Assembly (NCBI RefSeq): GCF_002937115.1
Contig: NZ_NHRY01000059.1
Span: 1-32,584 of the forward strand
Length of the DNA: 32,584 nucleotides
Reading direction: 5' to 3'
DNA from: Rhodopila globiformis
GTDB lineage: Bacteria; Pseudomonadota; Alphaproteobacteria; Acetobacterales; Acetobacteraceae
Both the position numbers and the translations under genes were made by a program. The notes beneath the pieces are model-generated. The model had not been told where the DNA came from. It saw only the letters and a list, made by a program, of their open reading frames with translations, and ran no database searches. Shown piece by piece: positions 25,399 through 27,862 of this stretch (the first letter of the stretch is position 1; each line of letters begins with the position of its first letter).

Positions 25399-27060
25399 TC
25401 AGAAAAACCCGTGCAGGAACCAGCGCATGTCGCCGGTGCCGGCGTCGCTGCCGTTGCCGCGACGGAACAGCCAGAAGCGGCGGCCGTCGTCGTCCTCGAT
25501 CCGGAAGTAGTCGCGCACCAGGAACCATTCGCGGTCGCGCTTCCACCACTCCCCGGCGATCCGCTCCGGCCCATCGGCGTGGCGGACCCGGTGCCGCACC
25601 TGCCGCCAGGTGAAGGACACCGGCGGGTGGTCCGGCAGCAGCGCGATCACCTCGATCGGCTGCGGCGGGTGCAGCAGCCGCACCGGCCGCGGCCAGTCCG
25701 CCGGCCAGCACGCCGATCCGCACACTGACCCGCCGGGCGACAGGACGCCGGTCCGGCGCACCGAACGCTCCGGCACGTCGCTTTCCACCACGGCGATACG
25801 ATAAACCAACGACTCGCCCAGCCGGTTGACCAGGCGATCCACCAGCGGCGCCAGGTCCGGCGCGGCCGGGCCAACCAGGCACGACGCACCCTGGACGAAG
25901 CCTAGAGGCTCGGCCACGGCGACCGCCAGCCGCATCGCCTCCACCCCCGGCCCGGGATCGACCTGCTCCAGCCGCTCCTCGAACATCCGCCCGAGGTGCC
26001 GGGCGTCGCGCACCGGCCGCGCGGTGCCGACGCGCAGGGCCTGGGCGCTACCGTCCACCCGCTCGAAGCGCAGTTCCAGCCGTCGTGCCCCCTGCCCGGC
26101 CCGCTCCAGGTCGGCGCAGACCATGGCAACCAGTCGGGCGATCACCACGCAGAACGCCTCGGCCGTCGCCAGCGGCTCGACGAACCCCAGCCGCGCCTGG
26201 ATCGCCGCCGCCGGCGCGACCGGCACAATCGGCTCGAACACCCGCCCCGCCGCCTGGTCCAGCCGCAGCGCCAGCAGCGGTCCGAACCGCCGCACCAGGG
26301 GCGCCCGCGCCACGGCGGCCAGCGGGCCGATGCGGTCGAATCCCATCAGCCGCAGTTCCGCCGCCACTACATCCGACAGCCGCAACGCCTCCAGCGGCAG
26401 GTCCCCCGGCATCGAAGCACCTGGCGGCACCACGCCTCCGGCCGCATACCGCGCCACCGCATGCGCCACCGCCGGCGTATCGGCCACCGCCGCCCGCGCC
26501 CGCAGTCCCTGCCCGGCCAGCCGCTCGACCAGGTCCCGCAGCAGCGCCGCCTCGCCGCCATGCAGGTGGGCCGTGCCGGACACGTCGATCCACAGCCCGT
26601 CCGGCCGATCGGGCGCCGCCAGCGGCGCATAGCGCAGGCACCACTGCGCCAGCCGCGCCAACTCCGCCGCGTCCCCCGCCGGATCCGCCACCCGCACCAC
26701 CAGCCCCGGCACCAGGGCCTGCGCCAGCGCCAGCGTCATCCCGGGCCGGAGCCCCGGGGCATCGACCGCCGCCAGCGTCCGGCCGGTGACGGTGACCAAA
26801 GGAAGGCCAGGGCTCCGCCCTGGACCCGCAAAGGGGCGAAGCCCCTTTGATCCCATGACGGCGGATGGACAGGAGGGGGCGACCGTGCCGGTTGCAGCCG
26901 CTGCGTTGCCCCCTCCTGTCCATCCGCCATGAAAGGGTTCCAAGGGCCGTCGGCCCTTGGCGGGGTGCGGGGCAGCGCCCCGCTCTTCCTCAAGCCGACA
27001 GTCGCGACGGATGCGGTCGGTCGGCAATGTCGGGAACCAGACCGAGACGACCCGCCGCAT
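25399..27060 (-). CDS. imuB: ImuB, Y-family polymerase-like SOS mutagenesis protein
   Basis: A 553-aa Y-family polymerase relative that acts as clamp-binding adaptor in the ImuA-ImuB-DnaE2 mutasome. It starts MRRVVSVWFPTLPTDRIRRD and continues, after an insertion, with PLVTVTGRTLAAVDAPGLRP and GMTLALAQALVPGL. The palm motif that is SIDE in active polymerases reads LWIDVSGTAHL, so the catalytic acids are lost, as usual for ImuB. The little-finger-like region and a long C-terminal part end WFLHGFF. Residues about 24-83 are an in-frame palindromic element absent from the normal family outline. ATG 27060 lies 71 bases inside imuA. Confidence 0.92.
   Translation of the reverse strand: MRRVVSVWFPTLPTDRIRRDCRLEEERGAAPHPAKGRRPLEPFHGGWTGGGNAAAATGTVAPSCPSAVMGSKGLRPFAGPGRSPGLPLVTVTGRTLAAVDAPGLRPGMTLALAQALVPGLVVRVADPAGDAAELARLAQWCLRYAPLAAPDRPDGLWIDVSGTAHLHGGEAALLRDLVERLAGQGLRARAAVADTPAVAHAVARYAAGGVVPPGASMPGDLPLEALRLSDVVAAELRLMGFDRIGPLAAVARAPLVRRFGPLLALRLDQAAGRVFEPIVPVAPAAAIQARLGFVEPLATAEAFCVVIARLVAMVCADLERAGQGARRLELRFERVDGSAQALRVGTARPVRDARHLGRMFEERLEQVDPGPGVEAMRLAVAVAEPLGFVQGASCLVGPAAPDLAPLVDRLVNRLGESLVYRIAVVESDVPERSVRRTGVLSPGGSVCGSACWPADWPRPVRLLHPPQPIEVIALLPDHPPVSFTWRQVRHRVRHADGPERIAGEWWKRDREWFLVRDYFRIEDDDGRRFWLFRRGNGSDAGTGDMRWFLHGFF
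26801..26991. repeat. palindromic element inserted in frame within imuB (five hairpins)
   Basis: Five successive hairpins: 26807-26823 (stem 7), 26829-26849 (stem 9), 26860-26928 (perfect 21-bp stem around a 27-nt loop), 26940-26960 (stem 10, one-base loop) and 26967-26983 (stem 7). On the minus strand it encodes about 60 imuB residues (EEERGAAPHPAKGRRPLEP and so on), low-complexity and free of stops. It begins exactly where imuA stops. Confidence 0.85.
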
Positions 27061-27862
27061 CGCATGCCTCCGCTATCCAGGAACCGGGTTCGCCGCCGCG
27101 GCATCGGGTCAGGTCCAGGCGCCAGCGGGCGCGGCCCAGGCCGGGGGTTTCGGGCGCCTCGGGCAGCGCGGGCGGCGACGGTAAAACGGCGATCCGCCAG
27201 CGGGTGACGGCGGCCGAGGGCGTGGCCAGCGCCGGATCGTCGAAGCTGGCGCTGCGGCGGATCAGGATCGCCAGGACCCCGGTCCGCTCGGCCGCCAGGT
27301 GCAGCCGGCGCGACGCCACCAGGCTGATGCGCCCGGCCGGCTCGCCCACCACGGCGGCCAGGGCGGCATGGCGCAGGCCTTCCTCCATGACCGCCAGCAC
27401 CGCTTTGCCGGCCTCGACGAAGATTACCCGGTTGGGCTGCAAGCCGGCGCCCGCCAGGCCGGGGGCGAACAGGTCCGCCTGGCGCAGCACCCACAGGACA
27501 GGCCCATCCAGCCGGGCCAGCAGGCCGGCAACGAACAGCGTCGCGGCGGCGGCGTGCTCCGTGTCGGCGCCCGCCGAGGCCGCCTCATGCAGCGCCCCGA
27601 GCGCAATGCCGCCCCCCGGCAGCGCCTGGTCGATCGCCGGGATGCCCAGCGGCAACGACCGCGCCGGCGCGGCGGCATCGTGGCTGCGCTCGATTCGCGC
27701 GATACGCGCCCGCAGTTGGGCGATCGTGGCGACCTGCGCCGCCGGCAGCGGCCTTGACGGCGCCGGCGCGGCATCCTGAGATGCCCCGTCAGGTATCGCC
27801 TGGGACCTTTCCCCGGAAGCCGACTGGCCAGGCCGCACAGGAATGACAAGAGGCATGAACAT
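26990..27862 (-). CDS. imuA: ImuA, RecA-like SOS mutagenesis protein
   Basis: A 290-aa protein of the ImuA family (RecA/SulA-like fold without a good Walker A), partner of ImuB in error-prone repair. AQLRARIARIERS and LPLGIPAIDQALPGGGIALG (the region equivalent to the RecA P-loop start) are followed by GPVLWVLRQADLFAPGLAGAGL and RRLHLAAERTGVLAILIRRS. The C-terminus WRLDLTRCRGGEPGSWIAEA is typical. Start ATG 27862 lies within the LexA box; ATG 27856 follows it. Neither has a ribosome site, so the message may be leaderless or start further in. Its stop (TGA, 26990-26992) touches the edge of the palindromic element. Confidence 0.88.
   Translation of the reverse strand: MFMPLVIPVRPGQSASGERSQAIPDGASQDAAPAPSRPLPAAQVATIAQLRARIARIERSHDAAAPARSLPLGIPAIDQALPGGGIALGALHEAASAGADTEHAAAATLFVAGLLARLDGPVLWVLRQADLFAPGLAGAGLQPNRVIFVEAGKAVLAVMEEGLRHAALAAVVGEPAGRISLVASRRLHLAAERTGVLAILIRRSASFDDPALATPSAAVTRWRIAVLPSPPALPEAPETPGLGRARWRLDLTRCRGGEPGSWIAEACDAAGRLGLVPDIADRPHPSRLSA

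Follow-up and report, generated by a model that had tools for sequence, protein, structure and literature searches.

A palindromic repeat of the Acetobacteraceae read in frame within imuB and apparently inverted in place in a related species

Several families of bacterial palindromic repeats are described as lying close to or within genes. REPs have been reported close to the ends of ORFs, as suppliers of stop codons, and inside dnaE2 and other repair genes (PMC3733652), and in-frame insertions of RPEs and MITEs are likewise already in print (PMC2229807). Template switching has been reported both to homogenise the arms of inverted repeats and invert their spacers (PMC8604942) and to create and maintain hairpins (PMC8794818). 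Our literature searches brought up no report that we recognised as dealing with the element family described below or with a repeat within imuB.

The locus considered here lies in a 32,584-nucleotide stretch of the Rhodopila globiformis genome (NZ_NHRY01000059.1; hereafter the window, its genome being G000 in our labels). An ORF and a profile match identify imuB on the minus strand (25399..27060; 553 aa) as coding for a Y-family polymerase-like protein with an insert near its N-terminus, and the end of the minus-strand imuA (26990..27862; 290 aa) overlaps the start of imuB by 71 bases. The insert is a palindromic element at 26801..26991 (covariance-model match 26800-26990); the minus-strand imuB frame stays open across its whole length and reads it as residues ~24-87. 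It comprises an outer hairpin H1 (26807..26823), an inner hairpin H2 of type x, labelled ...GATCCC (26829..26849), a central hairpin H3 with a long stem (26860..26928), an inner hairpin H4 of type y, labelled ...GAACCC on the minus strand (26940..26960), and an outer hairpin H5 (26967..26983). Among copies the sequence of H3 varies while its pairing is mostly retained. Folding the minus strand as overlapping pieces yields five hairpins with uninterrupted stems, and all five are also present when the plus strand is folded whole; when the minus strand is folded entire, its best structure instead joins the two outer hairpins to each other (z -9.06; none of 200 shuffles did as well). Taken as a whole, the element is a quasi-palindrome, with a 75% match to its reverse complement. 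An Rfam scan of 26700-27100 returned 25 matches up to E 5, none over the gathering score of its family; an RNA-family identity was accordingly rejected and the microRNA matches were read as chance hairpins. The folds and the ORF bear out an earlier note, made from the window's sequence, which described a five-hairpin palindrome within an open imuB frame. That note also placed the left boundary of the repeat at the imuA stop: the TGA (26990..26992, minus strand) does stand at the element's edge, so that imuA is spared by the in-frame insertion as proposed, but this edge is the left one only in the coding orientation, being the high-coordinate end.

The match of the Pfam IMS domain to this ImuB begins as late as profile position 43 of 148, which fits an interrupted N-terminus, and the remainder of the protein resembles Y-family polymerase-like ImuB. 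An AlphaFold2 model (overall mean pLDDT 71, pTM 0.46) places residues 30-32, 34-75 and 80-83 at pLDDT below 50 between a helix at 12-28 and a strand at 88-92, the inserted segment being predicted to be mostly disordered. Two relatives (G046 and G019; L054 and L055) have a long Pro/Ala-rich linker at the same position of ImuB without the element; the insert lengthens a connector that is already long without it in these species. As to other features of these proteins, ImuB of G042 (L048) is without the stretch directly behind the insert that other species have, and a second ImuB-like match in G003 (C186:5126-6718) is aligned from residue 38 and contains two TGA codons. DNA polymerase III alpha gave two matches in the window's genome (G000:C254:4776-5570 and C70:22223-22987), neither on the window's contig; DnaE2, if present, is therefore not beside imuAB here.

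A DNA search of the genome recovered the element at seven places, each on both strands, bearing out the expectation of further copies. The six outside imuB are intergenic and lie between GMC oxidoreductase-like and dnaA, thiD-like and MCE-like, thiS-like and aroQ-like, two ABC transporter, gltD-like and dioxygenase-like, and prfC-like and RNA methyltransferase-like genes; both their intergenic placement and these names are readings of the ORF table made without a search, the thiS and prfC labels being guesses from the flanks. Within the genus, a covariance model built from 29 full-length copies found matches at E 0.001 in 27 of 33 genomes. With stricter filters and 12 or 13 candidates scored per genome, it matched 118 of 200 genomes of the Acetobacteraceae at 1e-5, spanning 66 of 102 genera, and two of 190 genomes drawn from the class, one of them the present genome. 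The window's imuB copy shares 0.89-0.90 identity with three of the copies elsewhere in its genome (0.81 and 0.58 with two more) and 0.72-0.74 with the imuB copies of four relatives. Being closer to those three than to the relatives' imuB copies, it could have undergone replacement, gene conversion or reinsertion. The prfC-labelled copies of this genome share 0.89-0.91 identity with those of G006 or G008 and 0.76 with that of G041. For 26801-26991 together with the copies on C52, C245 and C263 of G000, likeness within the genome exceeds orthologous likeness to G006 and G008 at imuB and dnaA, as is seen in concerted evolution.

Two further structural features were observed. A small hairpin is nested in the element's own hairpins (G008:C38:2164-2188 and G000:C157:7568-7592); it adds 24 bases, is in frame in imuB of G008, and was matched in three of the seven genomes searched. 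Further, the sequences flanking the element look mutually inverted-repeat at L016 (by eye), L107, L114, L092 and L214, as if the palindrome had grown outwards or the element had landed in the tip of a hairpin. Flanking inverted repeats scored above the 95% point of mismatched pairings at seven of 48 sites in the genus, where the null includes related flanks (maximum 47), and at nine of 20 in other genera, with some sites badly cut by trimming.

Among the relatives, 30 ImuB loci were fetched and the N-terminus was read in 28 (L062 and L064 being left out). The element is present in nine of these, at full length in G000, G008, G041, G006 and G010 and in part in G023, G015, G012 and G042; by our own reading four more (G005, G018, G020 and G021) hold probable remnants, 14 have no element, and G013 was placed in neither class. 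The frame is kept in all 13 loci with an element or remnant. By comparison, the 49 full-length elements outside imuB have 90 stop-free frames of 294 and lengths that are a multiple of three in 13 cases. In the ImuB tree, in which the rows of G000, G042, G019 and G050 were cut at residue 60 rather than at the anchor so that the G000 row includes part of the insert, the 13 loci and G013 form one clade of 14 with support 100/100. Thus, the in-frame insertion is real in imuB but, contrary to the impression given by the earlier note, not special to this genome, as related species share it. Neither of the two outcomes that the note named as refuting it was encountered: the ImuB homologues found in other families do not match the inserted residues, and other copies of the repeat do exist in the genome.

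The placement of the element relative to stop codons was examined in the genus set of 69 elements located in 67 loci, 51 of them at least 160 bases long. The gene 3' ends facing these full-length copies, as judged by codon score, number 47, with orthologous sites counted repeatedly; in 27 the stop codon lies at 0 to +2 of the element's edge and in 40 at -11 to +2. The contact is looser among 20 elements of three other genera, where 10 of 24 facing ends have the stop at -12 to +3. Whether the element is there or not, the C-terminus of DnaA is LLES or a near variant of it (28 of 30 fetched loci looked at) and that of GltD is LPR (23 of 30); this indicates that the element begins at the native stop. 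In 22 of 28 loci the imuA frame meets its first stop at a distance of 59 to 74 bases downstream of the imuB ATG. Since the imuA stop is inside imuB, an element placed there is read as imuB.

The pairing of the element is well kept. Across the 29 copies 95.7% of cells pair, versus 83.0% in shuffles, and 29 of 52 pairs show two-sided changes, in 185 cells versus 53.7 in shuffles, the structure having been derived from the same alignment as these counts. Among 574 cells of the central stem, mismatches are G-U in 15, A-C in 10 and other in 17; within these small counts there is no clear preference for the RNA-tolerated G-U over A-C, which leans towards upkeep at the DNA level. Oriented copies carry one x-type and one y-type inner hairpin and therefore have a direction. 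In imuB this direction is y-x in five species and x-y in four, some of these elements being partial, and two groups of the ImuB tree each contain both orientations, namely G010/G012 (support 100/100) and G000/G006/G008/G041 (100/99). The label changes forced on that tree also count losses to remnants, and the orientation claim hence rests on these two named groups.

One case is that of G041, with G041, G006 and G008 all matching metagenome-assembled contigs by length. Compared as they stand, its imuB copy and that of G006 are identical at 142 of 206 columns; when one is inverted, they show 185 matches and 13 substitutions without an internal gap. The flanks on either side of the element, in contrast to it, align directly (160/180 and 272/304). 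Once inverted, the G041 imuB copy shares 0.93 identity with its G006 counterpart and 0.92 with that of G008, against 0.82 with the dnaA copy of its own genome. Judging by these alignments, the whole imuB element was inverted in place in this one species with the frame intact. The dnaA copy of G041 shows 0.87 and 0.86 identity to G008 and G006 when inverted, against 0.66. Template switching, we infer, would explain both the upkeep of the palindrome and its inversion. Neither this inversion nor the contact of other copies with stop codons figures in the earlier note.

We also asked if the inserted residues are themselves constrained. The imuB inserts of G006 and G008 differ by only 10 substitutions and three gaps: a 24-base hairpin added in frame, a +1 change in one arm and a -1 change near the end of the other, so that the 69 bases between the latter two are read in a different frame. 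Differences by codon position number 15/17/14 in the insert and 18/23/64 in the rest of the gene; the flat counts of the insert are mostly a consequence of the frame shift and do not amount to an independent test, and the comparison as a whole concerns one close pair, the remnant pairs being too short to judge. The proposal in the earlier note that the repeat has been domesticated as coding sequence is not supported: the residues vary in this close pair, are mostly predicted to be disordered and, if the remnants are read rightly, have shrunk in four species to a handful of residues with the frame preserved.

The reading that we favour, at a probability of roughly three in four, is that the imuB insert is a copy of an Acetobacteraceae palindromic repeat behind the imuA stop, which is tolerated rather than used and is upheld by template switching. 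A palindromic family of ~190 bases, confined in our searches largely to the Acetobacteraceae, lies in this genus mostly right behind stop codons; as the imuA stop falls within the overlapping imuB, the element there is read in the imuB frame. The landing site would be the connector by which helix A of the polymerase-like fold leads into the strand after it, a place at which disordered residues may be tolerated, and those copies that preserve the exit frame would survive. A process acting on DNA, most likely replicative template switching between the arms, would maintain the palindrome by mending mismatches and could invert the element entire. The family, its position at stop codons, the kept frame, the covariation and the one in-place inversion can be read from the sequences compared; what we infer from them is that the insert is tolerated without serving a function, that template switching is at work, and how the element first spread.

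The kept frame in 13 of 13 loci, the strong RNA fold directly behind the imuB start, and the long element-free linkers of G046 and G019 at the same place would also be expected had the insert been recruited, with its residues or its mRNA structure serving ImuB, for instance as a partner-binding linker or a translation brake. We regard this as improbable, given that the middle of the insert is read in different frames in G006 and G008, the inverted copy of G041 encodes a different peptide, four species retain remnants alone, and G-U mismatches are not clearly preferred over A-C. More improbable still is that imuB translation starts within or behind the insert, leaving the element as an untranslated leader. 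An in-frame ATG is indeed found within the insert of G000, G006, G008 and G010, but it is absent from that of G041, G023, G015, G012 and G042, three of which are also without GTG and TTG; moreover, element-free species also conserve, in the imuB frame, the stretch upstream of the insert position, although part of this stretch overlaps imuA.

The history and placement of the element admit other accounts as well. Instead of one old, invertible insertion, a mobile element seeking stop codons might have inserted repeatedly and independently at imuA in either orientation, an account in keeping with the nearness of the window's copy to others of its own genome, with both orientations inside two supported groups of the ImuB tree, and with a dnaA stop that carries copies in at least five species. 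We consider it possible, if rather unlikely, as the G041 imuB copy, once inverted, is nearer to its counterparts in G006 and G008 than to the dnaA copy of the same genome, and the remnants suggest an old event. It is also conceivable that the element terminates transcription in both directions and took the place of native terminators, its placement behind stops reflecting selection for termination: at 14 of the 51 full-length sites both neighbours face it by their 3' ends, and in the element-free dnaA gap of G015 we noted by eye another hairpin. Yet the imuAB copy sits within two overlapping genes, so that ending transcription there would be to the detriment of imuB, and at nine of the 51 sites both neighbours face it by their 5' ends; hence, we hold this account to be unlikely.

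A search for further coding cases yielded one doubtful example. A codon-score scan for intragenic insertions flagged none of the 69 located elements and missed the imuB copies too, whose short 5' flank overlaps imuA. A second scan flagged none of 89 elements on both sides, its four N-terminal cases being three imuB copies and L128. Both scans, whose sensitivity is poor, missed a frame of G042 found by eye: at L088:492-3299, a single open frame of 936 aa spans an NAD-dependent epimerase domain (66-286), the element and, from ~429, domains of the TPR and glycosyltransferase 41 types. As there is an in-frame ATG inside the element, this may be either a gene fusion or a pair of genes of which the second begins within the element, and we treat it as doubtful. 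L141 and L102 were rejected as intragenic insertions, appearing by eye to be start extensions, and L112 of G006, considered as the same site as L088, proved to be another locus.

Taken together, we tentatively propose, while judging the odds to be against it in this full form, that an Acetobacteraceae palindrome settles at stops and inverts by template switching, thereby rewriting a 60-residue segment of imuB in frame in one step, and that elsewhere it may join two genes, as in G042. The imuB case also yields a testable rule, namely that a palindrome which settles at a stop codon is turned into a segment of protein where two genes overlap. An inversion inside a coding region would further provide a natural series for weighing template switching versus RNA selection as the keeper of perfect bacterial palindromes, and the ImuB series would bear on how much disordered sequence a subunit of a translesion polymerase accepts.

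The element resembles the REPs of the GTAG and CGTC superfamilies, which are palindromes at the 3' ends of ORFs whose termini often give stop codons and which also occur within ORFs, among them DNA repair genes and dnaE2, the gene of an error-prone polymerase (PMC3733652); it shares their preference for gene 3' ends, with 40 of 47 stops at -11 to +2 in the genus. It differs in its size of ~190 bases, its five hairpins and the lack of the GTAG/CGTC tag at the hairpin foot: near the 102 ends of the 51 full-length elements GTAG was found 13 times, CGTC once, GGAAGG 55 times and AAGG 80 times. In PMC3733652, CGTC repeats are not reported from the Acetobacteraceae. The Y1 (RAYT) transposase PF01797 was matched in eight of 33 genomes searched, including G006, G007 and G013 of the genus, and gave no match in G000, G008 and G010, all carriers of the element; mobilisation by RAYT was rejected, this genome being without such a match. 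Compared by description rather than by sequence, the element is like the RPEs in being a dispersed palindrome (seven copies in this genome) found in frame within a conserved gene (imuB, in nine of 28 loci) and tolerated as an added protein segment; RPEs are 105-146 bases long and known from 19 reading frames (PMC2229807), whereas the present element is known from imuB and one doubtful second case. With ERIC, RU-1 and other MITEs it shares the form of a palindrome of ~100-200 bases that lacks a transposase, lies near genes and is sometimes fused to ORFs (PMC2229807, PMC2759123); TA occurs near both edges in 17 of the 51 full-length elements, a target-site duplication itself not being demonstrated, and the parts of these two papers available to us mention no in-place inversion of such an element. 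Hence, with intragenic palindromes already known, it is the element family, the position at an overlapping stop and the in-place inversion that make the imuB case a variant of them.
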